Part shown: positions 5,331 to 59,834 of the stretch, piece by piece
How positions within the stretch are numbered: position 1 is the first letter of the stretch
Layout: every line of letters begins with the position of its first letter
Assembly: GCF_032854445.1 (NCBI RefSeq)
Contig: NC_088306.1
Location: forward strand, 4,088,373-4,152,372
Source: Liolophura sinensis
Lineage: Eukaryota; Mollusca; Polyplacophora; Chitonida; Chitonidae
Length of the DNA: 64,000 nucleotides
Reading direction: 5' to 3'
Program-made: the position numbers and the translations under genes
The notes under the pieces: model-generated
What the model was told of the DNA's origin: nothing
The model's input: the letters and a program-made list of their open reading frames with translations, nothing else
The model's database searches: none

Positions 5331-5401
5331 ATGTCGATTCTACTTATGGCTCGTCGGCGAAAAAACAAAGCAGCGGAGAAATGTAAAAACAGAGATGAGG
5401 G
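5331..5401 (+). CDS. FAIM-like gene 1, candidate first exon
   Basis: ATG at 5331 opens a 23-codon exon, MSILLMARRRKNKAAEKCKN followed by RDE, that ends GG/GTAAGT (donor at 5402), phase 2. The next FAIM exon at 26183 begins with one base completing this codon, so the join is in frame, giving RDEGRRLKEAE. The assignment is strengthened by a homologous exon on the opposite strand at 59761-59834 (MSVILMAGRK..., also phase 2) at the 5' end of the second FAIM-like gene. The product begins with a short basic leader that mammalian FAIM lacks. The intron would be 20.8 kb and would contain the intronless ORF at 7114-7830. A second in-frame ATG (5346) is an alternative start. Confidence 0.5.
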
Positions 5402-5884
5402 GTAAGTTCAAATTCAGATTGTCAAATCTTGACAAAAACGATATGTGGATAAACCATAAAATGTAAAAGCCCGTCATATTTCCAGAAAATTTACTGTATA
5501 ACAGGAGTAGAATTTAAAAAAGTTCTTGTACGACACATTTTTAACTTTTATCCGACATTACGGTTTTATAGGTAATGTTCTTAGATGCGGGCTAAAAGCA
5601 ACTCTTATATACCGCCAAGCCGGGTTTTGAGATTTTGAGAGCAGTCCACATTAAAATAAATATATTAGTCCTTTAATTTAACTTTGACTTTTGTAAGATG
5701 ACAATGTATATGCTGAATGATTGGTTGTAGTTGAGCGGCATAGTTTTAATTATAACTGTAACTGACGTACTTTTCTCATGCAATCGTCTGAAGCCATCCG
5801 TCAGTTGGCTTTGCCGAAACATAATCTAGCATGACCAGTGGAAACGACCGTACCACGTTTCCACTGCCACTGTTTTTTTTTCAT

Positions 5885-6092
5885 AATAATTATGACGTCA
5901 CCCGTGGCAATGCGTTCTTGTCGCCAAAACCGAGCTTATGCAGTTTAACATTATAAATTAGATAAAATGTTCTAAATTCATTTTCTGTGCAAGGATATGA
6001 ACTTCAATATACCTGTGTGTAGAGCTTGTGTTGTTGCGTGTCACTGACTGAAGGCTATTTCGGTAGCGATGATGGCTAATTTTACAGACAAT
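5885..6092 (+). repeat. Diverged dispersed repeat, pairs with 21084-21290
   Basis: TGACGTCACCCGTGGCAATG, then GTTCTTG, GAGCTTATG and TTTAACATT recur in the same order at 21084-21290, together with CGTGTCACTG and AAAGACAGC/AAGGCTATTTCGGTAG-type ends. Function unknown. Confidence 0.55.
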
Positions 6093-6623
6093 TTAAAGGA
6101 GAAGAAAATTTAAATATCAGTCATATACCATTGAAAAGATTATGCATTTCCTCATAGGTGCATGTCATAAAAAATTTTTAGTATGTACCTCAAGTTGATA
6201 AATTATAAATAAAGGCAGCGCCAAAATCCTCTGCGGGCGACTCCATTTTGCCTAAGAACTAGTCCTGAAGTCTTCTGTGTTAGGAGGAGAATGGCCGCCC
6301 GAAACCGCCGAAGTGCAGTTCGTACATTTCCGGTAGAAGGTAGCGAACAGTTCAGTTCGTTTTCCGCTTGGCGATCGGGACACCAGAATGTTGGACGTAG
6401 GTTGGGCGCACCCGAGGCTCCCCACCCCCCCACGCCCCCAGCATAAATTACAGTGTGTTAAAGATGGAGGACGCGATGGACTCAGCGATTTATACCAAGT
6501 TTTCAGGCTTAACGATTATGGCGAGCAAAAATCGCAAAATTATGCAGCAGGCACCACCAGATAGAAAAAATGTGCTCTTTTCAGCCTATAGTGTAATTTT
6601 TTAAAAGTTTTCATCTCCTTTAA
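6093..6623 (+). mobile_element. TTAA-flanked MITE, copy 1
   Basis: The left end TTAA-AGGAGAAGAAAATTT and right end AAAGTTTTCATCTCCT-TTAA form short terminal inverted repeats (AGGAGAWGAAAA). TTAA on both sides is the target preference of piggyBac-type transposases, so this is a non-autonomous DNA element, about 520 bp. Shared internal landmarks with the copies at 51144 and 52576 are TGGAGTCGCCC (reverse), CCGCCGAAGTGC, GATGGACTCAGCG and GCAGGCACCACCAGATAG. No coding capacity; the open frame inside is incidental. Confidence 0.75.
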
Positions 6624-6986
6624 TATAGGCGACTGGCTAAAAGGAATAAACTACAATATATAAGCTGTAGCTAACACACAGACTCCAACGGCGAAGAGTT
6701 TTTTTATATATGATTTAGTCCTAGATGTAAAAATTAATAACTTAATACTGTCTGGTAAAAGCACTTATACGTTTAATTATGGTTATCAAATGATTGTAAT
6801 TTCGAAAAAAAATTTGTACATTAACTTAGTGAAAATGAGGGATTGAAAAGGAATTATTTGTTACAGAGGCATCAGTTACATTTACATGTGTTAAGGTGTC
6901 CATGGCCCAGGCCTGCACATCCAGTGATAAATCTGAGAGGTTTCCCGTATTCCTACGAAAAGTACCGAGTGAATGTTGTCATTATT

Positions 6987-6996
6987 ATGACGTCAT
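6987..6996. promoter_or_regulatory. CRE-like palindrome ATGACGTCAT
   Basis: A perfect ATGACGTCAT palindrome is followed by TGAGTTA, 24 bases before the first well-placed ATG (7020) and about 120 bases before the ORF start at 7114. It fits a CREB/ATF or AP-1 family site in a TATA-less proximal promoter. Activity is inferred only. Confidence 0.45.
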
Positions 6997-7019
6997 GAGT
7001 TAAGTGCGTCATTGAAAAG

Positions 7020-7220
7020 ATGGCGTCACAGACGCGTTGTCAAAGATCGTCAAACGCCCTCAGGTTTTTGCCGGGTGTACTCCGGTTTTTATGCTTCGTC
7101 TGGACGTCGAAATATGGACGTCAAAACGCCCACAATAGGAAAGGAAACGTTTGTGGAGCTCAACAAAAAGTTAGCGTATCTAAGCAAACGAGTAACCTTG
7201 TTGGAGAGGCATTACGATGA
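7020..7220 (+). other. Upstream ORF overlapping the start of the 7114 ORF
   Basis: A 66-codon frame starts at AAGATGG (strong initiation context) and ends at 7220, overlapping the first 107 nt of the main ORF in another frame. It has no recognisable domain. It may repress main-ORF translation, or the true mRNA start may lie between 7022 and 7114. Confidence 0.35.
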
Positions 7221-7830
7221 TATGATAGTTCGCGCAGAGCAGTTGGAAACTTTGGCCGAAGCGGTGAAGAAAAAGGCGGACCAAGAAAAAGAGATGTCTA
7301 GTGTACTCGAGCTGTTGCTAGGCCACGGAGAAACTTCACTTCGTATCGTCAAATACATCTTCCAATTTCTTCACGTCCTTCGTCGGAAATGCCAGGATAG
7401 CTTCACCTACAAGCTGAAAACCGTTAAAGACATGCATGCGGCGTCCAAGCTTTTACCGTTCAAGGAGCTCATTTTAAGCATTCTTCCCGAACTTGGACTG
7501 GCGCTCAGCGACCTTGTGGCAGTTCTCACCATTTTAGATTTCTTTACCCAAGATCGTATCTTGGCCTCGGGAATAGGCGTCTACATAAGAAAACAAGCGG
7601 GTACGGCTGGTTCACCTCCCTTGCCACCGTTGAAGAGCGACTCGGAGACTCGTCAGTCCGGAGAAGAAGTCAGGCAACTTCTGCAATTTATCACCACCAA
7701 GAAACTGGATAAGAAAACGCGAAGTAGTTTGAGGCGATTTATCGCTGTGGGACAGTGCACGAGAACGAATCGACCAATTAAAGACTTTCCTGATTTATTC
7801 CTCGTCAAAGAAATTCTTGGTTTGCGATGA
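7114..7830 (+). CDS. Intronless ORF, 238 aa, unknown helical protein
   Basis: The longest non-repetitive frame in the window. The first in-frame ATG is at 7114 (AATATGG: A at -3, G at +4); the frame is open upstream to a stop at 6988 without another ATG. The stop is TGA at 7828. The product starts MDVKTPTIGKETFVELNKK. Residues about 10-65 are charged with heptad-like Leu spacing (probable coiled coil), 65-150 are predicted helical and hydrophobic (for example ILSILPELGLALSDLVAVL), then a Pro/Ser linker near residue 175 (SPPLPPLK) and a basic C-terminal helix (RSSLRRFIAVGQ). No signal peptide, no certain transmembrane span and no enzyme motif. I do not recognise the family. Base composition is more GC-rich than its surroundings, as for genuine coding DNA. 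It lies on the same strand as, and within, the inferred FAIM-like intron 1, so it could be a nested gene or a retrocopy. Confidence 0.65.
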   Translation: MDVKTPTIGKETFVELNKKLAYLSKRVTLLERHYDDMIVRAEQLETLAEAVKKKADQEKEMSSVLELLLGHGETSLRIVKYIFQFLHVLRRKCQDSFTYKLKTVKDMHAASKLLPFKELILSILPELGLALSDLVAVLTILDFFTQDRILASGIGVYIRKQAGTAGSPPLPPLKSDSETRQSGEEVRQLLQFITTKKLDKKTRSSLRRFIAVGQCTRTNRPIKDFPDLFLVKEILGLR

Positions 7831-8619
7831 ATTTGCGATTTGGAAATCATCACTTTACTATTCTGTTTTACCCTTTTAAAGTGAATCGGACTAAAACTGT
7901 GAATAGTATGTTGTTCGTTTCTGCCTTGGCGATGGCGTTCAATGTGCAAATCCGGGAACATAGTACTCATTCATTGGCAGAGAACGATGGTCAGTTCAGC
8001 TTGAACCCGAGTCGCCATTGCGCGGGATAAGATACCCCATTGAAATCACGAAATGGTTAATACTTGTTCAGGTCGACCTAAAGTCCGGGAGAAAGGATTT
8101 ACACGCTCCATGGAAAGAAAAAGAAACACAAAACATACTGGCTTCATTGTTTTCAGAACGGAATGTGGTGACTAATATGTCAGTAAAATGTCCTCTTTTT
8201 GAAGTTTTTTTTTTTTTTTGCAGTAAATAGTGAGAGGGATTTACGCCATACTCAAGAACATTTCGCTTACTTATTTCCGACCAGCATGCAAACAGGTTAG
8301 CCTGCCCGTTTCTGCATGTGGGTCTTGTGTCAGATAAGTGAGCATATGATATAAACCGCATGATTATCAAGTTGTGTGATTTCTTCTTAGTTGCGGGTTA
8401 GACACGGTGCTCAATACAGAATTCCGACAGCCTAAATATGGTGGTCGTTAGGAGGTAAACCCAAGCTTACTCCTTTTATGGTTTTATCCGGCCTATGTTG
8501 TTCATTAAATGCTGTGAGTGAAACCCTCTAAGTGTTTCCTGTTTGGTGAGGTCTTGAAACTGATTCAGTAAATGACATACATGTATGTTCATGTCTCGCT
8601 GCCACATCTGCCTCTCTCC
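7831..8619. other. No gene seen; probable 3' flank of the 7114 ORF
   Basis: No canonical AATAAA close to the stop was seen. A short SINE tail fragment occurs near 8233-8270 (GATTTACGCCATACTCAAG). Otherwise nothing recognised. Confidence 0.4.
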
Positions 8620-8762
8620 AGTGTGATCCAGCTGATGCTGGCTTCCTCTCCGGTAGTACGTGAGAAGGTCTTTCAGCAACCTGTGGATGACCATGGGTTT
8701 CCCACGTGCTCTGCAGGGCTTTCCTCCCGACATAATGCTGCTCGCCGTCGTCTATAAGTGTA
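8620..8762 (+). repeat. (AAAT)n-type SINE, body only
   Basis: Forward-oriented core: GATGCTGGCTTCCTCTCCGG, GAAGGTC, CAACCTGTGGATGACCATGG and CGCCGTCG; it lacks head and tail. Confidence 0.7.
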
Positions 8763-9990
8763 GAATATATGTACACAGAATTGCGTAGAAATCTTATCAA
8801 TCAATCAGATTAAATCATCAGTGACATAATTTGTTGGCGCTTATGATACATAAATGTAGGGGATGACTGTTTAGTTTGATTAATATATAAACTGTTTATC
8901 GCGTTATCACATATTTTAAGAGAGTGTGGTAAATTTCTTTGCATTTTATATTAAAGGTGGGATAACGAAGTATTTTAATCTTAATGGCTACCTGTAGATG
9001 ACTGAAACAGACCAGTGTATAGAGTTAGGGTTATGGCAAACAGGTGTTGAACACAATCGCCGCGTTTGACAGATAAATAGTTGGAATCAAAGCACAATGA
9101 GATACCTAGGTGAGTGGAATTCGAGTTCGAAATCTTACAAGTAAAGGTAAAATGATTACCTTTGGTTTATTTGTTTATTTATGTATTTTTTTGATTGGTG
9201 TTTTACGTCCATTCACTATGACATGGGCGTCCCAAAAGTTTCACTAAAAGTAATTTATAGCAGATGATTGATAGAAAAAACTATCAAAGACATCCATCCT
9301 GGTTGACGGCTGGTATACGAACTTATTTTTTAAGCCCTATACTCTCAGCGAAAGGTGGAGATGGGTCTAAAATGGATACAGATATGTTTATCTTTTTTTA
9401 ACCAAGAATTCCTTCTGGTGTATTTTGACGGTTACCATAGCAACATAGTAATGCACAGAACAAATGGCTCATAGACTATATGAGTCGGGAAATGTCACTC
9501 TACCATCTTCACGATAATAAGGATAGTTTCAGTTTTGACAATGTTAGTTATTCTTAATTGGAGAGCAATATATGCCGAAGAGTCCTGCATGTGGTGTGTA
9601 GATATCTCGCCTTGTACCCTGACTAGATAGATCTTGCGTACATGTAGTGTTACCATTTATATAAACGTCAGAAGTTAGGCGCATATGACTGCAGAAAGCT
9701 TTGTGTTAAAAATATTCCATCAAATGCTTTCACTCCAAGTTTCATAAATTTGAAAATGATAATTCTCTTGAGAGTAAATGCGGAAAAAGTGTTCATAATC
9801 TCTGGTGTTCTACTTGTGTTCAATTCCTCTTAATTGGTTCCTCCTAAACTATGAACATTCGCAATCAAAGCTTACCTGAGACAAGCCTACGTGTACGTGA
9901 CATGGTAAACTATTTGGAGCTTGTGGCACAATTAAAAAATGTTGACTCCTTCATGTTGCATGGTGCTTCCCCGTACATAATTTCTTGTAC
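8763..9990. other. No gene seen
   Basis: AT-rich intronic DNA. The only recognisable item is a truncated SINE tail near 9165-9215 (TTTATTTATGTATTTTTTTG then GGTGTTTTACG). Confidence 0.45.
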
Positions 9991-9991
9991 T

Positions 9992-10172
9992 TCTTTGGTG
10001 GTTTGTGCTAAACGTTGTTTTGAGGTCTGTCATTTTGTGTTAATCGTTGTTTTGAGGTCGGTGTTTTGTACTAATCGTTCTTTTGAGGTTGGTGGTTTGT
10101 GCCAATCGTTGTTTTGAGGCTGGTAGTTTGTGCTAAACGTTGCTTTGAAGTTGGTGGTTTGTGATAATCAGT
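9992..10172 (+). repeat. Short degenerate minisatellite, about 40-bp unit
   Basis: Four to five imperfect copies of GGTTTGTGCTAAACGTTG followed by TTTTGAGG. The units differ at many positions. Confidence 0.7.
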
Positions 10173-10316
10173 TTGAAACATTCATTATTGTTGAATCCGT
10201 TTATCTGAATATCTTATACATCAATCATGGCGGGTACTTAACCGAACAATCCCGCCACGGGTATATGCACTTTACCAGGAAACCAAGCCCTGGAAATCTT
10301 ATTTTATTCATGCATG

Positions 10317-10641
10317 TACTCCTTACTCTTTCCTTTCGCTTTACATAACTGCCGCCATAAGCAATTTTTTGTACAGAAATCTAAAAAAAAACGTCGAGAT
10401 CACTAAGATCACGGTCATGAGACAGGAAGTTCTTTGTTTGTAATACACATGCATGCTCTATATCTAAAGTATGAACACCTGAAACAATCTTATTTCTGAA
10501 TGCTGATTAAATAGTCCCGCACTAGAACACCAGTGGGGAGGCTAAGCCTAAATAAGCCTACGTGCGTCGCACAGACTCCAAAGGTAATGCTTGCCTAGTG
10601 GTGGCGGTGATGTAAAGCGAGCGTAGAGCACAAAGGAGTAA
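10317..10641 (+). mobile_element. Fold-back MITE, copy 1
   Basis: The left end ACTCCTTACTC...CTTTCGCTTTACATAACTGCC and right end GGTGGCGGTGATGTAAAGCG...GGAGTA are inverted repeats of about 50-60 bp. The interior (GCTGATTAAATAGTCCCGC, AAGCCTACGTGCGTC) matches copies at 19911-20309 (opposite orientation) and 42851-43255. Non-coding, non-autonomous DNA element. Confidence 0.7.
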
Positions 10642-11929
10642 AGGCTAGACTCGAACTAAAAGAGTTAAATTATTTATTTATTTATTTAATCGGCGTTTTA
10701 AGCCGTGGAGCAATTAAATGAAACCTGTGTTGCATGCATGCTTACGACGAGATGGCAAGGAGAATGACCAATACGTCAACACGTGACTCTGCCAGACAAC
10801 TATGTGTGTATCTATGAACACTATTCGTCCGCTCCATTGGTTTAACCATCGCTACTGTCCGCTTTAGTTTAGTGTAGGGTCGGAATTGTCCATATCGAAA
10901 AAGGCCGTGGCAGATCCTTATCACTGTGATATGTTTATGAGATAATAGTGCAGCCCACATGCTAGGATAAGTGACAGTTTGTGAGCGCTATAAAAACCGA
11001 TGAAATGAATAACTTCTGGAGATACACAAGGGAACATGCATAAAAATTGATAGGCTATAAAAATGTTCTTATTTATTTATAGCCGCTTTGCTGTAGATGC
11101 TGACTAGGTTCTATACATTTATGTGTCCACTAGCGAAGACACACTCGTTAGTAATCGCCTTTCGTGACTCCATGAAAAGCAAATGATTCATATACCGGTA
11201 CGGGGTGTTTCGTGACGTCAACACGGACCGCCGCACGTGGGCATCACGAGGGCATTTGTGTTTAAATTCGACCTTGACAGTCGATTGAAAGAGTTACCAA
11301 TGTAACCAAGTGAACTCATTGTCGGACATGCCTCCACTGGAAGTCTAAAGACCTTTGATCCTCGGGATAAAACGAGCAGTGCATTCATTTCTCACATTAA
11401 TCCAAGAGCTGCTACCAACATATCGGCGACCTTATCAAGGACAAATAAGTGGACTATACAATATGGGAGACAAACGCCAAGAAATAAGTCAATAGTCCGT
11501 GCTAGCCTATTCTATGTGGACAACTGAAGTCCTGGTGACTACAGCGATAACATGCATCGATGGCAAAGTAAACAATTGGTATAGTTCGATAACTAAATAA
11601 TACATTCATTCCAGATTACAAATTCAGGTTTATGGGATACGGGAATTACTTAAGCCTTGAACCACTTAGATGTTACAAGAAATGGGTTACTCCTTCTACA
11701 CGAAATATTCAGTTGGTGAATTTTATTAGAGATGTGAAGATATGATGGGAGGGCAGAGCTATTTTGACGGCGTTGGTACCATCACCAGAAATCAACTGAA
11801 ATGACGCCATATAGACACGAAGAAACAAAACTCAACACGGGAGTTTTGTCCTCGAAAATCAGTCCGTATTGTTTATCAGTGAAACGCAATTAAAACTGGT
11901 TGCTATACATTTTGAATATAAAACATGGT
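10642..11929. other. No gene seen
   Basis: It begins with a SINE tail fragment (10671-10705, TTTATTTATTTAATCGGCG). The rest is unremarkable intronic DNA. Confidence 0.45.
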
Positions 11930-12202
11930 ATTTATTTATTTATTTGATTTGATTTGGTGTTTTACGCCGTACTCAAGAATATTTCATTTATACGACGGCT
12001 GCCAGCCTTATAATGGGAGGAAACCGGGCAGAGCCCGGGTAAAACCCACGACCATCCACAGGTTGCTGGTAGACCTTACTACGTACGGCCAGAGAGGAAG
12101 CCAGCATGAGCTGGACTTGAACTCACAGCGACCGCATTGTTGAGGGGCTCCTGGGTCATTACGTTGCGCTAGGGTGATAACCAACTGAGCCACGGAGGCC
12201 CA
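11930..12202 (-). repeat. Full-length (AAAT)n-tailed SINE with tRNA head
   Basis: Read on the minus strand: GGCCTCCGTGGCTCAGTTGG head with A box, B-box segment TGTGAGTTCAAGTCC, core CCTGTGGATGGTCGTGGG, the conserved tail block CTTGAGTACGGCGTAAAAC, and the (AAAT)n tail at 11930. One of the two most complete copies in the window, with 36445-36708. Confidence 0.85.
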
Positions 12203-13040
12203 ACGTGGTATATAAATCTACGTTTTATTTTTTTTATTCCATATCACATACGGCAGCTAAAGTTTGAAACTTAATATGGATTTTGATCCTGGAATATCAA
12301 CGACCGCCTTTCCGTACGATGTCATCGTATTGATGACTTTTTTTGTAAACCACTCGACACCTATCGGTTGTGTACGCCTTGATGTTGGCGGTTGCTATGG
12401 AAATGGAATCATCGATTCGGGTTTACATCAGTAAAACGTTCACGGTATATACATAAACAAAGCTAAATGGCATATTTACTTTTGTATTTGGTTGATGAGT
12501 CTGAGTCTGTGTATATACTGTGTCTTCTTATGAAAGGGCGAGTCCATGATGCCAAAGTGCAGACACCGATGACAAACTAGTCTTGTTAGCTTGCTCTAAT
12601 CTTGCAGTACATAGCGCCAGGCGAGGCATCAACAAGTAGGCCTATACCAATTTTAAAGTCTGTGGTATGAGCAGACACAAGCAAACAAAAAAATAAATAA
12701 ATAAAAACCGATGGAGGCCGACTCAGTTCTCCTGCTTCCGCTGTTTCGGCTTTAAACTGCCCCATTTCCCCCACGTACGTGTCAAACCACCTGGGGATTC
12801 TAGAATGTTTATCTCTTGCAAATATAGGCTCACTGGGGACATTGTTTTGTTTAATATGGCCTACATTGCTACATAGTCTCACTGGTATGTTTACATTCTG
12901 AAATGTCGGTGTCTTGCAACTGTAGGCCGTATTCCGATCGTTTTAATCTACTCTTTTGCTCTACAGATTCTTTAATTTAAATATAAGTCTTGCAGTCTGT
13001 ACACTTGGGTAATTTTGAATTAACTATGTCGTGCAGTTCA
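12203..13040. other. No gene seen
   Basis: Short open frames only. Nothing recognised before the 72-bp array begins. Confidence 0.45.
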
Positions 13041-18035: not shown

Positions 18036-18039
18036 TATC

Positions 18040-23899: not shown

Positions 23900-26010
23900 A
23901 CATCCTATTTCAAGTCATCTTTAACTCTATTGCAGATTATCTGTTAAACCCTATTTCAGGTTATCTCTAACCCTATTGCGCATTATCTGTTAAACCCTAT
24001 TGCCGATTATGTGTTCAACACTATTGCCGATTATCTGTTAACCCATCTTGTAATCTTTATATTTAAGCCCATTCTACGTTAACATTAAAACAGGATTTCA
24101 CATTTTCCGTTTATCTGTTTACCTTTGTGCACCGCTTAAATCCTATCACAGGCTATATGTATATGCTAAAACATATTCCACGTTATTTGTAACTCCAGTC
24201 AGATTATCTCTTTAACGCTGTCAGCAGATCGTCTGTTTAACTCTTTCAGCACGTTCTCTCATTAACCCTATTAGCAGGTTATGTGTTTAACCCATCAGCA
24301 GGTTATGTGGTTAACTCTATTGGCAGGTTATCTGTTTAACTCTATTGGCAGGTTATCTGTTTAACTCTATTGGCAGGTTATCTGTTTAACTTTATTGGCA
24401 GGTTATCTGTTTAACTCTATTGGCAGGTTATCTGTTTAACTTTATTGGCAGGTTATCTGTTTAACTCTATTGGCAGGTTATATCTGTTTAACTCTATTGG
24501 CAGGTTATCTGTTTAACTCTATTGGCAGGTTATCTGTTTAACTCTATTGGCAGGTTATCTGTTTAACTCTATTGGCAGGTTATCTGTTTAACTCTATTGG
24601 CAGGTTATCTGTTTAACTTTATTGGCAGGTTATCTGTTTAAATTTATTGGCAGGTTATCTGTTTAACTTTATTGGCAGGTTATCTGTTTAACTTTATTGG
24701 CAGGTTATATCTGTTTAACTCTATTGGCAGGTTATCTGTTTAACTCTATTGGCAGGTTATCTGTTTAACTCTATTGGCAGGTTATCTGTTTAACTCTATT
24801 GGCAGGTTATCTGTTTAACTCTATTGGCAGGTTATCTGTTTAACTCTATTGGCAGGTTATCTGTTTAACTCTATTGGCAGGTTATATCTGTTTAACTCTA
24901 TTGGCAGGTTATCTGTTTAACTCTATTGGCAGGTTATATCTGTTTAACTCTATTGGCAGGTTATCTGTTTAACTCTATCAACAGGTTATCTGTTTAACTT
25001 TATTGGCAGGTTATCTGTTTAACTCTATTGGCAGGTTATCTGTTTAACTTTATTGGCAGGTTATCTGTTTAACTATATTGGCAGGTTATCTGTTTAACTC
25101 TATTGGCAGGTTATCTGTTTAACTCTATCAACAGGTTATCTGTTTAACTTTATTGGCAGGTTATCTGTTTAACTCTATTGGCAGGTTATCTGTTTAACTC
25201 TATTGGCAGGTTATCTGTTTAACTCTATTGGCAGGTTATCTGTTTAACTTTATTGGCAGGTTATCTGTTTAACTCTATTGGCAGATTATTTGTTTAACAC
25301 CACTTTGGTTTATCTGTTTAACCGTATCAGCAGGTTATGTGTTTAACTCCACGAACAGGTTCTGTGCTTAACCCTATTTCAGGTTATCTGTTTAACTCTA
25401 TCAACAGGTTATCTGTTTAACACTATCAGCAGATTATCTGTTTCACCTTATCAGCTGGCTATGTGTTTAACCCTATCAACAGATTATCTGTTTAACCTAA
25501 ACGCAGATTATTTGTTTAACCCCTTCTAGTTTTGTCTGTTTAACCCTATCAGCAGACTATATGTTTAACCCCATCAACAGATTATATGTTTAACCCTATT
25601 AGCAAGCTATCTGTTTAACCCTATCAGCAGATTATTGTTTAACCCCATTTCGGTTTATGTGTTTAACCCTATCAGTAGGTTATCTGTTTAACCCCATCAG
25701 CAGATTATTTATTTAACCCCATTATTGTTTATCTGTTTCACTCTATCAGCAGATTATCTGTTTAATCCCTTATTGTTTTATCTGTTTAACCTTTTCAGCA
25801 GGTTATATGTTCAACCCTATTTCGGGTTATCTGTTTAACCCTACCAGCAGATTATCCGTTTAACCTATCAGCAGATTATCTGTTTAACCCTATCAGCAGA
25901 TTACCTGTTTAACGCTGTCAGCAGATTATCTGTTTAACTCTATCAGCACGTTCCCTCATTAACCCTATTAACAGGTTATCTGTTTAACATTGTCAGCAGG
26001 CTATCTGTCT
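23900..26010 (+). repeat. 25-bp minisatellite, about 2.1 kb
   Basis: Around 80 copies of GGTTATCTGTTTAACTCTAT plus TGGCA. Copies from about 24300 to 25290 are nearly identical (variants only CTCTATTGG/CTTTATTGG/CTATCAACA and an occasional extra TA); those on both sides are increasingly diverged (CCTATCAGCAGATTATC types). It sits about 170 bp upstream of the FAIM exon at 26183. Confidence 0.95.
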
Positions 26011-26182
26011 AACCCTTTCGAAACCATATGGTTTGATAACGATGTAAGAACCTACATCGAAACGTCACCAACACAATAAATGCAGGAGTTGTTATCCATA
26101 AGTAATGCCTCTGTCAATCTATACCATCCCAATTCCTAAATGCCTCTGGAAGAAGCTATTTAATGTTTTGACAATATTGCAG

Positions 26183-26307
26183 GCGCCGTTTGAAGGAGGC
26201 AGAAGTGGCGGCTTTAGCGGACAGTATCGGGCCCCTTCCCCCTCAGACGGCCACTACACGGGTCTGGACATTCATGCTGGAAGATCAGCCCTACGGGGTC
26301 GTCTTTA
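26183..26307 (+). CDS. FAIM: FAIM-like gene 1, exon 2
   Basis: 125-nt exon between a GACAATATTGCAG acceptor (26181-26182) and an A/GTAAGT donor (26308). Its start phase accepts two bases from the 5331 exon; translation RRLKEAEVAALADSIGPLPP, then TRVWTFMLEDQPYGVVF. The W-x-F-x-L-x(6)-VVF pattern corresponds to the first two strands of the C-terminal beta-sandwich of FAIM (family W-VLHMDG...RIVLEK). It ends in phase 1. Another frame across the exon is also open but does not continue across the splice. The conserved Leu-Lys-rich lead-in (LKEAE) parallels SLKKYME in vertebrate FAIM. Confidence 0.72.
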
Positions 26308-27548: not shown

Positions 27549-27598
27549 ATATAGATTCTATGAATGTAACGTTGAATGGGATTCGGATCGAATGCAGG
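27549..27598 (+). CDS. FAIM: FAIM-like gene 1, exon 3 (50 nt)
   Basis: A 50-nt exon between TCTTTTCAG and AGG/GTAAGA. With the single base from exon 2 it reads NIDSMNVTLNGIRIECR, matching the family pattern (DAMDVWCNGKKLETA), with the conserved V-x-x-NG turn. Phase 1 in, phase 0 out. The opposite-strand paralogue has a 50-nt exon with the same phases (40247-40296). Confidence 0.8.
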
Positions 27599-29257: not shown

Positions 29258-29398
29258 GCGGATTTCACCGACGACGGAAGCGTCACCGACTTTGTGGTTG
29301 GCGATCACAAGGCAAGGATTACGACAACCTCAAGTGGGTCTCGTCGCGACGGGATGATACATTGCCTGTCTGTGGACGGATATCCCATACCCGAGTGA
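29258..29398 (+). CDS. FAIM: FAIM-like gene 1, terminal exon
   Basis: The acceptor is TCTTGTCTTCAACAG (29256-29257). The exon enters in phase 0 and ends at TGA (29396-29398). Translation begins ADFTDDGSVTDFVVGDHKAR, then TTSSGSRRDGMIHCLSVDG and ends YPIPE. It matches the most conserved part of FAIM: EF-DDG-ETHF-GNH, then SSG-RK-GIIH-L-VD---IPE, including the terminal IPE. This is the strongest evidence for family identity. FAIM is a cytosolic all-beta protein linked in vertebrates to death-receptor resistance and to suppression of protein aggregation. The inferred product of all four exons is 128 aa, shorter than the 179-aa human short form because the N-terminal FAIM half was not found. Confidence 0.87.
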   Translation, partial: ADFTDDGSVTDFVVGDHKARITTTSSGSRRDGMIHCLSVDGYPIPE

Positions 29399-40246: not shown

Positions 40247-40296
40247 GGTGACTTCTACTGGTTCTCCGTTTATCCATACATGCAGATTGTCACGAG
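40247..40296 (-). CDS. FAIM-like gene 2, penultimate exon (50 nt)
   Basis: Acceptor ACACTGTTTTTCAG (40298-40297), donor ACC/GTAAGT. The last 16 codons read RDNLHVWINGEPVEVT, aligned with gene 1 IDSMNVTLNGIRIECR and with human FAIM DAMDVWCNGKKLETA, and keeping V-W-x-NG. Same length (50 nt) and same phases (1 in, 0 out) as the gene 1 exon. The acceptor and the first 12 exon bases form the last unit of the tandem array that starts immediately upstream. Confidence 0.72.
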
Positions 40297-41090
40297 CTGA
40301 AAAACAGTGTAATGGGAAAATAATTGAGACATCATGATTGTCACGAGCTGAAAACAGTGTAATGGGAAAATAATTGAGACACCATGATTGTCACGAGTGG
40401 AAAAACAGTGTAATGAGAAAATAATGCGGACATCATGATCGTCACGAGCTGAAAACAGTGTAATGGGAAAATAACTGGGACATCATGATTCTCACGAGAT
40501 GAACACAGTTTAATGGGAAAATAATGCGGACATCATGATTCTCTCGAGTGGAAAAACAGTGTGATGGGAAAATAATGCGGACATCATGATTGTCACGAGC
40601 TGAAAACAGTGTAATGGGAAAATAATGCGGATATCATGATTGTCACGAGCTGAAAACAGTGTAATGGGAAAATAATTGAGACACCATGATTGTCACGAGT
40701 GGAAAAACAGTGTAATGGGAAAATAATGCGAACATCATGATTGTCTCAAGCTGAAAACAGTGTAATGGGAAAATAATTGGGGACATCATGATTCTCTCGA
40801 GCTGAACACAGTTTAATGGGAAAATAATGCGGACATCATGATTGTCTCGAGTGGAAAAACAGTGTGATGGGAAAATAATGCGGACATCATGATTGTCACG
40901 AGCTGAAAACAGTGTGATGGGAAAATAATGCGGATATCATGATTGTCACGAGCTGAAAACATTGTAATAGGAAAATAATGCAGACATCATGATTGTCACG
41001 AGCTGAAAACAGTGTAATGGGAAAATAGTGCGGACATCAGGACTGTCACGGGCTGAAAACAGTGTAATGGGAAGACATTGAGAACCATCA
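40285..41090 (-). repeat. 50-51-bp array that repeats a 3' splice site
   Basis: About 16 units. On the minus strand each reads TTTTCCCATTACACTGTTTT, CAG, CTCGTGACAATC, ATGATGTCCGCATTA. The last unit is the real acceptor and start of the 50-nt exon; the array copies diverge from the exon after CTCGTGACAATC. Roughly ten copies keep CAG before CTC; others (CCACTC or CATCTC types) have lost it. Confidence 0.9.
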
Positions 41091-45390: not shown

Positions 45391-46419
45391 TTTCAAGCAG
45401 GTGAAAGATTCTTGGTTACAGTATTAAACACCAATCATGGAAAGCTCAGCAAATATGTCTTAGCAAAGAGTAAGATGACGAGGCATTGTTAAAAAGGCGA
45501 TTAACAGTTTAAACAGAGAACGAATAACAAACATTATACGTACAAAATGAGACACGGCAATTCGATCCGTCAATGCTGACCTCCCAGGCTTTAGTTAACA
45601 GGGGCTTCGCCTTGGAATCATACAAACAAAAACCAGCTTTCCTGAAAACGAAATGAAGAGCAGATATTACCAATGCGATCTGAAGTTCGTTAGCAACATA
45701 TTCAATTTCCTCTTATGTCAATTACACGTCATTGAGATTGGTAGAAAGCAGTGACGTCACATATCAGGCTTTTTCTCGAGGACCAGTAGAGGACTAGTGA
45801 CGACATGTTTTGGCCACGTGCAGAAACCCCCTGAGATGTCACATTTCAGCCTTTTTTTCCTGTTTAAAACAATAAAACACGTAAAACATACATCATTCTA
45901 AATTCAAACTTCGCATGCATATGGAAAATGAAATAGAGTTCCAAGCTTTACAAGCTCCTCTTGTATGGAACACTTTCGCCTTGCTTTGTGCATCTTTTTG
46001 CGCCTGCGTGGACAATGTTCATTTCAGGTTCTGTTTGAAATGCAAACTGGAAAACACAGTGTTTGTCATCTTTGTAAAACATTTTCTTGAGTGTTTTCAG
46101 ATTTGCGAAACATGTCAGGAGAATGGGGTTTAGAAAATTGCCTACATGTCGACCGATAACAAAAAGACAACACGTTAGCTGCTGCATCGATCTGTTCGCT
46201 TTTACGCAGACCAAACACATTCATAAAAGAAAAAATAGTTACCCAAGGAATTCATGACGGCGTAATAATTGATAATTGATTCGCCTGGAATGATTTTTTT
46301 TGTAAACAATGTTTCAGTTGCGGGGAGCTATTAGGGAATACATGGAATAGATGTGATTTATTGACTATAATTTACAGTCGCTGATTTCAATCATCGATGT
46401 GACATGTGATGGTTCTTAC
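45391..46419. other. Intronic, no gene seen
   Basis: Nothing recognised apart from a CRE-like GTGACGTCAC near 45750. Confidence 0.4.
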
Positions 46420-51020: not shown

Positions 51021-51120
51021 TACTTAAACCACAGCAGTGAGGACGGTGGTATGGTTGACACATGGTCACACGTAACCGATAATACACAACCTCTTGTCAG
51101 TTTACCTCAGTCTGGGTTTT
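51021..51120 (-). repeat. Dispersed 130-bp element, copy next to the 48-bp array
   Basis: Minus strand AGACTGAGGTAAACTGACAAGAGG followed by GTTACGTGTGACCATGTG and TCCTCACTGCTG. It is the flank from which the 48-bp unit continues, indicating that the array grew out of this element. Confidence 0.6.
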
Positions 51121-51143
51121 ATTCTGACTGATCACGAATGTTA

Positions 51144-51720: not shown

Positions 51721-51889
51721 GATTACAGGAGCGCAATGATTTGCCTTACTATTTGTGTGGTAAATTTGTCAGCTTCAACCTCAAAAATATATATCCATTA
51801 ACTTTCGTACTATGCCGCACTAGCATATGTAGCTTGCATTTGTCAAAAAATCTACCGTGGGCAACTACATCTTATAATGGATGCACTAC

Positions 51890-52330
51890 GCATTATCCAT
51901 CGTGTTAAGGAACGGCATCGTATCAAGGAATTACAAAAGTTTATGCATCGTGTTAAAGCAGTTCATCGTGGAAAGGCACTTTATCGTGTTAAGGCAGTTC
52001 ATCGTGTTCAGGAACTTCATCCTATTAAGGCACTTCATTGTGTTAAGGAACTTCATCGTATTAAGGCACCTCATCGTGTTAAGGCAGTTCATCGTGTTAA
52101 GGAACTTCATTGTGGTAAGGAGCTTCATCGTGTTAAGGCACTTCATCGTGTTAAGGCAGTTCATCGTGGAAAGGCACTTCATCGTGTTAAGGCAGCTCAT
52201 CGTGTTCAGGAACTTTATCCTATTAAGGCACTTCATTGTGTTAAGGAACTTCATCGTGTTAAGGCACTTCATCGTGTTAAGGAAATGCATTGTGTTAAGG
52301 ACCTGTATCGTTTTAAGGAACTGCGCCGCT
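51890..52330 (+). repeat. 18-bp minisatellite, hexapeptide-encoding
   Basis: About 24 copies of CATCGTGTTAAGGCACTT. The unit is six codons, so frames persist: plus frames give HRVKAL/HRVKEL (51877-52395) and IVLRHF (51881-52438), the minus frame gives LNTMKC. Two higher-order blocks are near-repeats (51955-52060 and 52135-52240). It lies between two inward-facing MITE copies. Confidence 0.93.
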
Positions 52331-52575
52331 TTAATATTACTCCATGGTATTATGAAGCCACATTGCGTTATACAACTACACAGCGTTTACTATAAGCTTG
52401 AATCTTTTTGTTTTAAGCACCCTTTTATTAACGGCTAAATTACAGGTATATATCATTGGTCACAGTGTCAGGCTTTCATGTTACTTTCCATTAAATGTGA
52501 TGACAACACAGCGTTTGGAGTGGTCGTTGACCACGTCTAATAAACATAGCTGCATTTGTTTTTACCTAACATTGT

Positions 52576-53100
52576 TTAAAGGAGAAGAACACTTTAAAAA
52601 AATGACACTATAGGCTGAAAAGAGCACATTTTTTTCTATCTGGTGGTGCCTGCTGCATGATTTTGCGCCTTTTCCTCGCCATACACGTAAAGCCTGAAAA
52701 CGGCAAAGCTGGCATAAATCGCTGAGTCCATCGTGTCCTCCATCTTTAACACCCTGTAATTTATGCTGAGGTTGTGTTACCTCTTAGCCAATGAGAGTTG
52801 TTAAAACTGTCGGCTTGTTCGTGTAAACTCGGAACCTACGTCCAACATTCCGGTTTCCCGATCGTCAAGCGGAAAACGAGCTGTACTGTTCACTACCTTC
52901 TGGGAAGAAGAGTTCTACCGGAAATGTACGAACCGCACTTCGGCGGTTTCCGATGGCCATTCTCCTCCTAACATTGACTTCAGGACTAATTCTTAGGCAA
53001 AATGGAGTCGCCCACAGGGGATTTTGTCGCGGACTTTATTTATAATTTATCAACTTGAGGTATATATTAGTTTTTTTTATGGTATGCACCTGAGAGAAAA
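52576..53100 (-). mobile_element. TTAA-flanked MITE, copy 3, truncated at its outer end
   Basis: Begins TTAA-AGGAGAAGAACACTTTAA and runs through ATCTGGTGGTGCCTGCTGC, TCGCTGAGTCCATCGTG and CCGCACTTCGGCGG. Homology stops near 53100, about 50 bp before the expected terminus. Confidence 0.75.
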
Positions 53101-53215
53101 TGTTGGAATAAAGCCCAAACTGAGGAAATTAACAATAGGCCGTAATTCACCAGTTGTGTGCGACCATTTACCATCTCTGCTCTGAGTTTATTTTCTGTGA
53201 TGTTTTCTTTCATAG
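53101..53215 (+). repeat. Dispersed 130-bp element, forward copy
   Basis: CCCAAACTGAGGAAATTAACA, GGCCGTAATTCACC, CATTTACCATCTCTGCTCTG, TTTATTTTCTGTGATG. It abuts the broken end of the MITE. Confidence 0.55.
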
Positions 53216-54014
53216 TTCAGTCTTGTTACACACGAGCTTTGACAGATTTACACCAGACCAGCCAGTGTTCAGTTCCACTTTAACACCTCCAATATAATTA
53301 TTCTCTTTGATCTTGCACCTGTGACTAACTGAACTCGCGTACTCTGCACTATTCAACCATGAGACGAACAGTGAGGCAATCACCATGCGGTGCACGGAAT
53401 ACTGGTACATGAATAAACAATTACTGTTTTACCAATGCATAGAGACATATATTATATATAAGGGAGGTGTCGAACTTGGAAATACTCAATAATGAATGGT
53501 TTTCATTGATTTGCTGCAATGGTCCACCGAGAGAATGAAAACTGTGCATGCTCGTGAGTATTAAGCATACAGTGATCATAGATGTAGGTATATACTGTAT
53601 ATGCATAAAACCTCGGGTCATTTAAAATAGTTCGGGTGGAAATCTGCATTCATCAGTTAACTGCGGTGGTAAGTCTGTGGGTGGGATATTAGATTAAACA
53701 ACATAAATATATATTATGCCCAATGGAAACCGAAAGCGTTGATCAATAGAATCTGCCCTATCCAGTAGAACATCGTAATTAGAGATACTGAGATTAAATC
53801 CGTGTTAAATATTGTGCGGTATTCTCTGTGTATAGTATATTGTGATAATAGGCAAACCAAACTGCAAGCTAACAGGTTTTCTATGATAATCTTTCCTTGG
53901 GCCAAGATGACAATAAGATGTCGACAACACTCGTTTACCCTTCACCAATTATGGTACGCTATTTGTAGCTACGTGATATCTCAGATGTGGGTAAGTCCGT
54001 CAGTAACTTGACAA

Positions 54015-54105
54015 AGGTCAGTGGTTTACCCCGAGCACTCTGGTTTCCTGGGCCCATAAAACTGGCCGCCATGTTGTATTTATTATTTATTTATTTATTG
54101 AAATA
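54015..54105 (+). repeat. SINE-like fragment with (ATTT)n end
   Basis: GTCAGTGGTTTACCCCGAGC, TGGGCCCATAAAACTGGCCG, then TATTTATTTATTTATTG. Confidence 0.5.
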
Positions 54106-54284
54106 GCTGGTGGTAAAACATATAGATTTGTCTTTCCTGCGTTATCTGGAATTCAGCGGGCAGTCCAATATATTGAAATTTGCATCGCCATTTTTTTTTT
54201 TACAAATTCAGTTCAAGCCATGTTAGTGGGAAGGGAGGCGAGTTAGTGAGTACTTTTCATTCGTATACAAGAACAATTGAAATC

Positions 54285-54440
54285 AAACTCTGACTGAGGT
54301 AAACTAACATGAGGTCGTATTCCACCGTTAATACGTATGACCATTAGCCAACTACATGTATCACATCGCTGTCACTGATCTGATTTTACCCTCTACGCGG
54401 TAGTCTTTTATATGCGTCGTCCTTATATACTGTAGTCTTT
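54285..54440 (+). repeat. Dispersed 130-bp element, forward copy
   Basis: CTGACTGAGGTAAACTAACATG, CACATCGCTGTCACTGATC, ATTTTACCCTCTACGCGGTA, GTCTTTTATATGCG. Its right end runs into the next array. Confidence 0.6.
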
Positions 54441-54725
54441 TATATGCTGTAGTCTTTTATATGCATGGTCCTTTATATCCTATAGTCTTTTATATGCTGT
54501 TTTATATGCTGTAGTGTTATATGCTGTGGTCCTTTATATGCCGCACTATTATATGCTGTAATCTTACATGTTGTAGTCTTTTTATATGCCGTAGTCTTAT
54601 ATGCCGTGGCCCTTTATATGTTATGTTTCTTTATATGCCAGTCTCATATACTGTAATCTTTAATATGCTGTAGTTTTCTTATATGCTGTGGTCTTTTATA
54701 TGCCATAGCTGTAACCTTTCATATA
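54405..54725 (+). repeat. Degenerate 18-20-bp minisatellite
   Basis: About 16 units of GTAGTCTTTTATATGCTGT with many indels. The unit is the terminal segment (TACGCTGTAGTCTTTTATAT) of the dispersed element that precedes it. Confidence 0.8.
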
Positions 54726-56400
54726 GTATCATATCGAAAGTTTCAATCACGCCATGTCGACACCCAGCTGTTCCAAATGTTGATTAAAGTCAGTTCTGAT
54801 TTTAAAAATGGCTCGCTCACCACCTTATGTTGTTTACATACTCAGAACAGGAATTCGTCTGGGTACATGGCATGCCACAGAGAACCAATCAGGGTTCTCT
54901 GCGGTCTGTGTGTGTGTTTTATTGGGAATCTCTCCATTACACCAAGTTACGAGAGTGTGCATTAGGTTTTTCAGGCATACACATCATGGGTCGCGTGCAC
55001 CGAGGGATCGTAAGCCTAAGTTGGGTGTAAATCGGTAGGATCACGACCGTGGCCTTCACTAACAGCTGACACCCAATTGCACGAAGGGATTGTAAACGAT
55101 GATAAGTGTAATTTACAATCACAAATTACACTCGGGTCGACCCAAAATTAACGTTAAGTACAAATACTTGCCTCAAGTAGACTGCTAGTTAATACATTTC
55201 GACTGGATTTCCAAAGACATGCCATGTATTGTCTCAAACAGATATTACGAGCATGTTTTCACATGTTGTTGTTATTAGCTGCTGAATCAGTAAAATGTAT
55301 AATTCTTTTGAAAACGAAGGCAAGATAAGTTATTGAACGGTACACTGCTCATTTACACAGGCCAACTTTATATACGAGTAAAATATGACCTATGATCGAG
55401 ATTGTAACTTCAAAAATTTACAATCGCCGTACATTTCCTTTGTGCAAGCGGCGCAGCTTATTTTCACAATCAAGTGTAAACTCAATTGTCGGGTCTACAA
55501 TCGATTGAAGCATAAACGAAGCTGGACACCATAAGCAGATAAACGCTGCTTGTCAAACAAAGGCGTCATTTTGATAACCTTGGTATCTTCGTGACTCAGG
55601 AGTGAAAAGAACACGAATATAGCAACTTGATTTTACACAGTGCTGGTTGCATATCAACAAGGCTATGTGACCTGTGTGTTATGCTAAATAACTGATTATG
55701 TTTATTGTCATCATGTTCCTGAATAATGTAAATAAACAGAAGAAAGTAAAATAAATAATGGTGTAAAGAAAGGGTTTAATTAAAATGTTTTACTTCAGAA
55801 ATTCCTCAGGTATACTGACAGCATGGAGAAACGCATAATTGTAGGATCGTACATACTTAAATAAGGACAACAGTTAAAAGCTTTGAATGTGATTGTGCTG
55901 AAAATTTCTTGTAGCGATTTTGGTAAGGCTCTGTAACATGCAGACATTTGGTTATATCTTTTGTTTTGTAAATAATTTTGTAGATTTGCTCCACCAAATG
56001 TAAAAAGATAAAAAAATAATTTGCCAGTGCCCTTTACAGCTTAGCGTTTACACCATTTTCAAAATGGCGTAGCAAATACGATGCCGTGAAAGCTCAATGA
56101 CAAGGTTTAATGTTTGACAGACAAAAAAACCCCACCGAATTGATAGCGGCCATATCGGAAATCATTAGTGTCTCAACCCGTAATGCCCCACAAACAATCA
56201 ATAGCGACAATAAGAAAGAAGATTGTTGGGGATCTAGGTGCTAGTATAATGGTATCACACACAATGCCGTTAAGATTGAACCGCACAGCAGGTGCCAGGT
56301 TAAATGCTCTTTGCAGGAAACAAGAGAGAACGACTAAAATGCTAACCTAGTAGCTAGGTGCGAGATCGTGAAAGACTAGCCTGGCCTTCAACTCTAGGGT
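54726..56400. other. Intronic, no gene seen
   Basis: Short overlapping frames at 54777-55038 and 56168-56350 lack any hallmark. Confidence 0.4.
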
Positions 56401-56520
56401 GATAGTGGCATAAAAGGGTTACCGCGTGGAGAGTAAAACTAGAGCATTGGCGACAGCTTGACGCAGCCAGCATGAAATCCTACCTGTTCACACTTTACCT
56501 CACTTAGGGTGGGACTCTGG
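56401..56520 (-). repeat. Dispersed 130-bp element, reverse copy
   Basis: ACCGCGTGGAGAGTAAAACTAG, GCATTGGCGACAGCTTGAC, CACTTTACCTCACTTAG. Confidence 0.5.
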
Positions 56521-58084
56521 GAAAATGACCCGGTTAAACACTGATATATTTGTTTAGTCTGTTTTCATATGATTGTGACGTCACTGGTCTAGAAATATTA
56601 AAAATGCTGTATTGTCATCACATTTAGTACACAGTAACTAATATCTGTCTTGCATGAAAGCGAGACTGGTCAACAGCGACTTTTCTGCCGGACATGTATT
56701 TGCGGCCGATGGGATTTAAAGAGTACTACACAAACCGATGCATTTCGTTCAATCTTATTTACTAAACATGCCAAAAGAGAACTGCGAAAGCTGCTCAAGC
56801 ATGCAGACAAATTGGCGAGTGGAAATACAAGTTTCGATTTCCTACAAAGCCTTCCCTCTGCAATCAAAATGGAAGGCCTTTAGCGGGGGTGTGTGTGCTG
56901 TTATTTACGCATTTTAATGAAACTTCAAGAGGCCATATTTCAACAGTTACATGGAACGATATGCCAACTTTTACAGTGCCGTTGGTGCCCTTGTTTTACT
57001 CTCTACGCTGTAAGTCTTATATTATATTGTCACAATGCTTAGATTTAGGAACTGGAAATTTGAAAACATTTGTCTTAATTATATTAACATACATGTAACA
57101 GTGTGGTGTAACATGAAGTAGAGAAAAATTCTATTTTAAGCCTCCCGCTGTCCCCTTGTTTAAAACAAATATTTCACATTATCACGAGTCGGGATCCAAA
57201 ATGGTAATGTGGAATCAGCTATGGCTCAGCGAGGGCGGGTGGTATCGACCTGACGATGCTTACTTCATGTCTCCCCCACTCCCCGTCCCACCTCCAACTA
57301 CCCTGACCGCCGTGCTATCACTGAAATAATCTTGAGTGCGACGTAAAGCCGCAATAAATAAATACATAAATAAACATAAAACACAAATGAATTAAAAAAT
57401 GGAAGCAGCAAGACAGGGATCTCTTTTGGGTAGAATTTCGGTCCATACCAGAATGCACTTTGGCATGGTCATGAATAAGCGAAACAAAAGCTGTATTAAC
57501 TGATATCTATAATAACCTATCAGCAAAATGGTACCAAAACAGAACTGGTTACAGGGTTTAGACAGCTTTGACCAGAGCGACCGGGAGACTGTGAATCGTT
57601 TTGCCTTAATGGGGTGGATTCCCTTTGGAGTTTTTCCAAACAATAGCGATTAGTAATGAAGGGCGATTTCCCCGCTGGTACTTCACTTGCGTGACCCAGT
57701 GTGATGGCTGACCTTTAGAAGAGGATGCGCAGATTCAGTCATCGCCAGGCCTGTTATGAACTAACATACTTTGAGTATAAAGTAGTCTCGTAAAATCTCG
57801 TCTCTCTCTCGTTACTTGAGATCCAGCCGATAGCCTTTTAGTCCATATTGGACTCTTTTTATACTGAATGATTAAAACGACTTGAATTCTGCAGGTGGAG
57901 AAACAATTCCCGAAGCCTGGTCCATTTGCACTGTTTTCATGTTGTATGTCAAATGTGACAACATCCCAGCGTTTTGAGTAATAAATTACAATTAACATCG
58001 CCGCATTTTTCATCCAATTCTGCTTCAGACATGGTGCCAGAGTACAAGTAATCTGCTACTTCTGAAGTATTTACATGAACAGAC
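56521..58084. other. Intronic; scattered repeat fragments, one weak ORF
   Basis: A 77-codon plus frame (56650-56883) has a helical Lys/Leu-rich stretch but no recognisable family. A short dispersed-element copy lies at 56950-57015 (GTTTTACTCTCTACGCTGTAAG) and SINE remnants at 57215-57375 (TTGAGTGCGACGTAAAG, AATAAATAAATAC). Confidence 0.4.
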
Positions 58085-58215
58085 AAAATAAAACCTTAAC
58101 TGAGGTAAATTGACAAGAGGCGGTATTTCATGTTACATGTCATCATTTGCTAACTGTCACACCGTCGTGTCTGCTCTGGATTTAGTTTCTGTGCTGTATT
58201 TTACGTTGTGTGCTG
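58085..58215 (+). repeat. Dispersed 130-bp element, forward copy
   Basis: Best copy: AACTGAGGTAAATTGACAAG, GGCGGTATTTCATGTTAC, TTGCTAACTGTCACACCG, TCGTGTCTGCTCTGG, CTGTGCTGTATTTTACG. Confidence 0.65.
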
Positions 58216-58258
58216 ACATAATCCAGGGTTCTACAGGTGGAAAAAGCATCTCCAACGC

Positions 58259-58392
58259 CTGGGGCCGGTTTCACGAAGGTTACTTGGTGTCAAATTGCCC
58301 TTAGCTAAGTGAACTTTATATCTCTACAACATACGTTGCCATGGTAGTTAAGGACTTACTTTAATCAAGTGAGCTTCATGAAACCGGCCCCA
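58259..58392. mobile_element. 133-bp hairpin MITE
   Basis: Near-perfect terminal inverted repeats TGGGGCCGGTTTCACGAAG and CTTCATGAAACCGGCCCCA, with a further internal pairing (TTAGCTAAGTGAACTT against CTTACTTTAATCAAGTGAGC is loose). Sequences with these ends are familiar in marine invertebrate genomes. Confidence 0.75.
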
Positions 58393-59760
58393 GCTTATTT
58401 AACATTGCTTTTTATGCTGGTGTGTGTTAAATATCATTACAACACTTCAATTAACATTCTTATCATTTTGTAAAACCAGTTTCTGTTTATGCCATGGCGC
58501 AAATTGTAGCGGGCGTGTAAATTGCTACTCTGTAAGCATTTACATGAACAGCTATTATAAAATCCTAACTGAGGTAAACAATCAAGCCAATAAACACCCA
58601 TGCCAAGAGCTATGTATTTAAGGTCGCTCTCACTATCATTAAAAACCATGGCATCTAGGATTGATATTTCTCTCATACCAGAGACACAGTCAGCTTTAGA
58701 GGAAAATGGCGTGCCCAGAGTAAACCACTTGTCTTTGTCAAGTATGTGACGAATTTTATTACATGTGACGCCTATGTTTTCACCCACGCAGCGATCTCAA
58801 GGTGATGTCCTTAACGAACGTCATGTAAAACTACTTAAACAGCCATACCTGAACTGTCGACCACTAATTTCCTTGAAGGTTTCAAGAAATGAGTCGGGCT
58901 CAAAAAATATCTGAAATTCCCTACCCCAGTTTGATTGAATTCTATACGTATGCATGATGCATGGCGACGTTGTAGTTAAAGAAACGCATTACGTAGCTGA
59001 CAGCAGCTGCCAAAACAAAGCGAAAATTCGAAACAGATCCATGTCAAGTTTTACAAAAAAAGTCAATATCGTCTTATACCAAGACCCATTGTTTAGTGAG
59101 CGAATTAGTAAACGTTAAAGACAACATGTCGAATATTAGCGAGGTCGACAGCCCGTCGTACAGATAAAATTGAGCAATTTCTAGACCTGGTCGCAGTTAA
59201 AAATATGTAAGCCGCTTCTGTATTTTGGCTGTATATAAGATTAGTATGAATGTAGACTGATGTTTAACTTCGGGTTTATGATCACAGTGTACGAAACAGA
59301 TATTCGTACACGAAACAATATGAGAATTCAGGGTGATTATTGGCATGGACAATTTCAAAAACAACGTTCAACACAGACCACCAAAGGACTAAAAAAGGAA
59401 AAACAAAGTATAAAATTAGAGCGGATCCATACAAAGTAGTTTTTGTTTGGAAGTTTTAATCAGATAACCAAAAAAATCTGAGGCATAACCATGTTCATAA
59501 CCAGTTTCCTACATCTGAAAAGCGAAATAAAATGAGGTTTTGGGGTAAAAAAATATGACACGAATCGGTTCACATGAATGCATCAAAAATGGCGGGATTT
59601 GAATTCCATTCATTTCAAACTGACTGAGCACAAGAAAATTGGCCATCGCACAAAAAGCTGAAGGCATGGCTTCCCGGCACTGCGACCTTGAGCTGGTTGA
59701 CTGATGCCTATACATGTCTCGTGATATTTATGGTGGAGGAGTAATATCAGTAGTTCTTAC
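58393..59760. other. Intronic, no gene seen
   Basis: The minus frame at 58437-58787 overlaps a SINE-core-like block (minus AAGTGGTTTACTCTGGGCAC) and is not supported as coding. Confidence 0.4.
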
Positions 59761-59834
59761 CTGATGACTTTCCGTTTGTTTTTGTGGTCCTGCGAAGTGT
59801 TCCGCTTTCTACCGGCCATGAGTATCACCGACAT
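59761..59834 (-). CDS. FAIM-like gene 2, candidate first exon
   Basis: ATG at 59834-59832 opens MSVILMAGRKRNTSQDHKN followed by KRKVI, 24 codons plus AG, then a strong AG/GTAAGA donor (59760). It matches the plus-strand exon at 5331-5401 in opening residues (MS-x-LLMA-RRK), basic composition and phase (2). The two exons sit at the outer ends of the two FAIM-like genes, each pointing inwards, as expected of an inverted duplication. Only exon 1 to exon 2 splicing is unproven. Confidence 0.5.

Follow-up and report, generated by a model that had tools for sequence, protein, structure and literature searches.

A tail-to-tail pair of FAIM-like genes in the chiton Liolophura sinensis, apparently reduced to the C-terminal domain

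FAIM in other lineages and in the chiton genome

In the portions available of two reports (PMC6628066, PMC7056718), FAIM is described as a conserved protein without sequence relatives and of obscure mechanism. The initial annotation of the locus analysed here set an inverted gene pair against a FAIM that is single copy in vertebrates. That argument does not apply, the host being a chiton, and strict single copy is not general either: the accessible text of PMC7056718 records faim-Gm6432, a testis-limited duplicate of faim found among muroid rodents, as well as two copies of faim for the choanoflagellate S. rosetta, and that of PMC9334734 lists two FAIM genes in Aplysia (LOC101863121 and LOC106012994). 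Genes encoding only the C-terminal domain (CTD) of FAIM were not found in the open-licence literature that we searched, which we do not take as a claim that they are unpublished. A supposed link between FAIM and radial spokes proved to be a false lead, as the matched word was 'FAIMS'.

The window, a stretch of 64,000 nucleotides, corresponds to positions 4,088,373-4,152,372 of scaffold C12 of Liolophura sinensis, a chiton and thus a mollusc. The assembly was first published as that of Liolophura japonica, with 632 scaffolds (PMC11068029, available in part), and its species was later corrected from L. japonica to L. sinensis (PMC12441733). We searched all 632 contigs (609,464,459 bases) for members of the family. 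A canonical two-domain FAIM of 178 aa, the product of the normal cell-protection gene, is present on scaffold C1 near 77.30 Mb, in exons of 114, 223, 50 and 150 nt; it scores 260.6 bits over profile positions 1-170 and matches solved structures of both the N-terminal domain (NTD) and the CTD. Since the genome has this two-domain FAIM on C1, neither of the two genes in the window is the ordinary FAIM of the animal, and the pair comes in addition to it. The genome-wide Pfam search recovered the canonical FAIM and the plus-strand gene of the pair and missed the minus-strand gene, so that search was not exhaustive; among the best-scoring candidates of protein searches across the genome there were no further FAIM copies.

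The canonical gene also changes how the shared exon structure of the pair should be read. The initial annotation had noted a 50-nt exon with identical phases and a terminal exon beginning at the same alignment position in both genes of the pair. The features themselves are there. The CTD exon frame (the 50-nt exon with phases 1 and 0 around it) is identical in the canonical, plus and minus genes, and exon 4 begins at the same alignment column in all three. As the 50-nt exon and the boundary of the last exon belong to the canonical FAIM too, they mark descent from FAIM and do not tie the two genes of the pair to each other in particular.

Elsewhere in the assembly, cox1 is matched seven times on scaffold C99, at intervals of about 15.5 kb, and one more copy lies on C632. 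C99 resembles a concatemer in which mitochondrial genomes are joined head to tail, and is probably an assembly artefact. We take the mitochondrial ORFs of this genome to follow the ancestral molluscan gene order.

Gene models and family assignment

Both genes could be modelled in full, each with a start, a stop, four exons and intron phases 2-1-0, and with GT-AG signals in all six introns. They are inverted and lie tail to tail, with about 9.9 kb between the facing stop codons. The plus gene, whose product has 128 aa, begins with exon 1 at 5331-5401 (+), which encodes a basic leader, MSILLMARRRKNKAAEKCKNRDEG, with its last residue split with exon 2, and ends in a phase-2 donor. Exon 2 (26183-26307, +) opens the FAIM CTD, exon 3 (27549-27598, +) has 50 nt like its canonical counterpart, and exon 4 (29258-29398, +) supplies the remaining CTD and the stop TGA. 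The minus gene, with a product of 126 aa, likewise starts with a basic leader, MSVILMAGRKRNTSQDHKNKRKVIR, its last residue split in the same manner, encoded by exon 1 at 59834-59761 (-) and followed by a phase-2 donor. The CTD starts in exon 2 (45641-45544, -), continues in the 50 nt of exon 3 (40296-40247, -) and finishes in exon 4 (39503-39345, -), which encodes a diverged CTD end and the stop TAG. The first introns span 20.8 kb in the plus gene and 14.1 kb in the minus gene. Exons 1, 3 and 4 of the minus gene stand as initially annotated; its exon 2 (45544-45641) had been overlooked. At the stop-triplet rate of the window, a random run of 126 or 128 codons would be free of stops with a probability of about 7e-4 for each gene.

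Both proteins score above the curated cut-off of 22 bits for the Pfam family FAIM1 (PF06905), which bears out the earlier view of an inverted FAIM-like pair whose plus exons encode the C-terminal domain. The plus protein reaches 71.3 bits (E=1e-19) over positions 88-171 of the 172-position profile, and the minus protein 35.3 bits (E=1.2e-8) over positions 92-170. It is the inclusion of exon 2 that brings the minus gene past the cut-off: exons 3 and 4 without it score 16.6 bits, and exon 2 adds 18.7 bits. Taken singly, neither exon 2 nor exon 4 of the minus gene has a Pfam match, and the whole minus protein is unmatched in NCBIfam. The top PDB matches of both proteins are solved FAIM CTDs, 2kd2 and 2kw1, with E-values of 2.2e-16 and 3.6e-16 for the plus protein and 3.8e-6 and 1.1e-5 for the minus protein. 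We take 2kd2 to be the mouse CTD, and 2kw1 (CTD) and 3mx7 (NTD) to be human. From these profile and PDB sequence matches, a C-terminal beta-sandwich domain is predicted for both proteins.

Since minus exon 2 was discovered by scanning for stretches with phase-compatible ends that resemble the plus exon and the canonical FAIM, the exons were also put in competition: phase-compatible candidates were joined to the remaining exons of the gene and scored on a profile of four FAIM CTDs, the plus CTD included. Minus exon 2 ranked first among 390 candidates of the intron, with 38.9 bits for the joined protein against 27.2 for the next distinct exon and 21.3 for exons 3 and 4 alone, and it still ranked first when the plus sequence was left out of the profile (35.3 versus 24.1). 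In an earlier and looser single-exon test its score was reached by one of 100 dinucleotide shuffles. Minus exon 4 came first among 162 candidates taken from the downstream 10 kb (38.9 versus 32.8, with 28.1 for exons 2 and 3 alone), and likewise with the plus sequence left out (35.3 versus 30.9); its basis is its phase, its position and a lead of about 6 bits, smaller than that of minus exon 2. On the other strand, plus exon 4 was first of 149 candidates by a wide distance (68.2 versus 21.3), and plus exon 2 was first of 512, the top-scoring start there being the in-frame alternative acceptor at 26225. Both starts are possible, and we prefer 26183 because its acceptor looks better.

We consider it highly probable that both loci are protein-coding genes descended from FAIM that kept the CTD exon frame, apparently lost the NTD and carry a new basic first exon in its place. 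Both would presumably be expressed.

Leader exons and the N-terminal domain

The outer first exons had been paired earlier by their similar N termini and common phase-2 donors, and this pairing held up. Over 12 residues, MSILLMARRRKN and MSVILMAGRKRN score 40, while the best of 60 shuffles reached 35; in the first 12 codons of the leaders, 4 are identical, 3 synonymous and 5 non-synonymous. One real pair in the window outscores the leaders (44, at 6291 and 52960), which we judged to be an interspersed repeat, and the ORF-against-ORF comparison of the window halves returned mainly repeats. An upstream exon of this phase is in any case required in the plus gene, as its exon 2 has no in-frame ATG ahead of the CTD part.

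The match between the leaders is short, and an intronless ORF of 237 codons lies on the strand of the plus leader at 7114-7827, so one could suppose that the exons at 5331 and 59834 are parts of other genes, that their likeness is due to chance and that the FAIM-like genes start elsewhere. We regard this as improbable: the pair score exceeds everything obtained in the shuffles, both leaders finish in phase 2 as exon 2 requires in both genes, and the pyrimidine tracts of the three phase-compatible acceptors that could link 5331 to the ORF are weak (6-9 of 17).

The ORF at 7114-7827 (+) is an observation in its own right. It lies within the first intron of the plus gene, has a TGACGTCA motif upstream and was matched once in the genome. 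It matches no Pfam or NCBIfam family, its best PDB match is weak (E=0.58), and its structural model is mostly helical and of low confidence (mean pLDDT 46.8). Among the 58 ORFs of at least 90 aa in the window, the 10 that were run against Pfam gave a single weak match below the cut-off, to the transposase family DDE_3 at 60892-61260 (+; E=0.015).

It appears that the plus and minus genes encode the CTD only. A scan of both genes for the NTD gave a best score of 30.0 in each, within the 28-37 obtained in reversed and opposite-strand controls, although a diverged NTD could escape it. Indeed, the CTD yardstick of the same scan returned 33 for plus exon 2, 32 for plus exon 3 and 30 for minus exon 2 against controls of 29-34, and placed minus exon 4 outside the top 8; being weak on known single exons, the scan could pass over a strongly diverged NTD exon. 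When the canonical FAIM was used as the query against the ORFs of the window, the best matches in the NTD region had E=2.9 (phmmer) and 0.85 (blastp), neither of them falling within either gene on its own strand.

Both genes might then still encode two-domain FAIMs, with diverged NTD exons hidden in intron 1 and the leader as the front of the NTD. First introns of such length offer the space, and the scan is insensitive to single short diverged exons. We nevertheless find this quite improbable. Exons 1 and 2 meet in phase 2 in both genes with no filler between them, which argues against hidden NTD exons; no NTD-like stretch rises above the controls in either gene; the best ORF matches are off-gene or off-strand; and the Pfam matches begin only at profile positions 88 (plus) and 92 (minus). 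According to the accessible part of PMC5628826, isoforms of human FAIM that include an additional 5' exon (2a) reach the nucleus; they could be seen as a loose parallel, and only that, to the basic leader of the chiton pair.

Divergence of the copies and the acceptor array

The description of the minus gene as a diverged partner agrees with its lower Pfam score and with a CTD identity of 28% between plus and minus. The plus CTD is 37% identical to the canonical chiton FAIM and 42% to 2kd2, which does not point to a recent split specific to chitons; the minus CTD is 24-27% identical to the three other CTDs, and the canonical chiton FAIM and 2kd2 share 57%. Blastn gives 48 HSPs between the two loci, and all of them lie clear of the exons. 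A local duplication, as proposed at the outset, is likely to lie behind the pair, and exons outside all HSPs together with so low an identity point to copies that are either old or fast-evolving. Support values in a tree of five CTDs (60 and 76) are too weak to date the duplication or to tell old from fast. A new function is possible.

Such divergence may also be viewed as decay, with the minus copy a pseudogene and the plus copy alone at work. The identities of the minus CTD are low throughout (28% to plus, 24-27% to the others), its Pfam score is half that of the plus protein and the region of its exon-3 acceptor has grown to 16 copies. On the other hand, the four minus exons carry no stop through 126 codons (a probability of about 7e-4), the start, stop and splice signals are intact, and divergence of this extent without selection should have broken the frame. 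We hold decay to be unlikely.

The repeated acceptor forms a tandem array at 40285-41073 (-) with units of 50-51 bp, each of which includes the acceptor of exon 3 together with the opening 12 nt of that exon. If up to three mismatches are tolerated in the 12 nt, there are 16 copies, 11 of them with an intact AG, and the last copy is the true start of minus exon 3. Four upstream AG copies are in frame with this exon, at 756, 606, 303 and 51 nt upstream. A genome search with the array unit gave nine matches, all at C12:4,128,673-4,129,422, that is, at this locus only. Minisatellites are very numerous in the window (57 TRF rows with a score of at least 100, some overlapping), as exemplified by the 25-bp units at 24200-26013.

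One may ask whether the array is a splicing switch, its length setting the output of minus protein. The 51-nt copy would then add 17 in-frame residues, while the use of other copies would lead to frameshifts or stops. Retention of the AG in most copies is in line with this, as is the fact that the 51-nt copy is the only one of the four in-frame copies to read into exon 3 without a stop. Given how common minisatellites are around it, the array may equally be neutral, and a switch seems to us very unlikely; our model of the minus gene uses the last copy.

Contact residues and comparison with known FAIM genes

Three residues reported for FAIM allow a comparison of the surfaces of the two proteins. 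Phe133 is predicted, and only predicted, to bury into BBS1 (PMC12642653, available in part), and Glu38, Arg110 and Asn123 are reported in the accessible part of PMC6628066 as important for the contact between the FAIM domains. We numbered residues by adding 90 to the 2kw1 chain, a shift picked so that the published R110, N123 and F133 fall on R, N and F. Read from the PDB alignments, the positions of Arg110, Asn123 and Phe133 are occupied by G62, N75 and F85 in the plus protein and by R54, N67 and I77 in the minus protein. The Phe133 equivalent, encoded in exon 4, is thus kept in plus and lost in minus, the Arg110 equivalent shows the reverse, and Asn123 has an equivalent in both; the position of Glu38 falls in the NTD. 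The BBS1 N-terminal domain (PF14779) has five matches in the chiton genome, on C6.

The most likely order of events, as we reconstruct it, is that one FAIM copy would have lost its NTD exons and gained the basic leader exon, that this NTD-less copy would then have been duplicated in inverted orientation, and that the two daughters would have diverged alongside the intact two-domain FAIM. Tentatively, and with more doubt than conviction, we suggest that each protein might act as a soluble CTD module of small size which, lacking the NTD, takes up a partner surface of FAIM. Through its Phe133 equivalent, plus could dock onto the propeller of BBS1, as proposed for human FAIM, and minus, in which the counterparts of Arg110 and Asn123 are kept, could associate with the NTD of a full-length FAIM; a division of labour between the copies would have no more than three residues as its basis. 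The most elaborate version of this idea, which we put forward as pure speculation with little chance of being right in full, is an NTD-less subfamily that splits the surfaces of the CTD. Plus would be a ligand of the BBSome (via BBS1) lacking the membrane-side NTD and a natural competitor of full FAIM, and minus, devoid of the BBS1 contact, would partner the NTD of full FAIM, with the 16-copy acceptor array tuning its output.

CTD-only relatives that keep or lose single contact residues amount to natural separation-of-function variants. With the pair, the role of the CTD in the absence of the NTD could be addressed, including the question whether binding to BBS1 needs Phe133.

Compared with known systems, the pair is closest to the canonical two-domain FAIM, with which it shares CTD sequence, exon boundaries and the 50-nt exon flanked by phases 1 and 0, and from which it differs in that the NTD was not found and a basic leader stands instead. 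Against the FAIM CTD, the plus protein is missing the Arg110 equivalent, and the minus protein is missing the Phe133 equivalent as well as the SSGKRK and IP(E) end. With faim-Gm6432 of muroid rodents the likeness lies in being a lineage-specific extra FAIM gene, and with the Aplysia genes in copy number, Aplysia being another mollusc in which FAIM is not single copy. FAIM2 and the TMBIM family are multi-pass membrane proteins that have only the name in common with the pair, and no such family appears among its Pfam matches. Extra FAIM genes are already on record in other lineages, and the chiton pair is a variant of this known family; it suggests a pared-down branch in a family that is mostly portrayed as lacking relatives.
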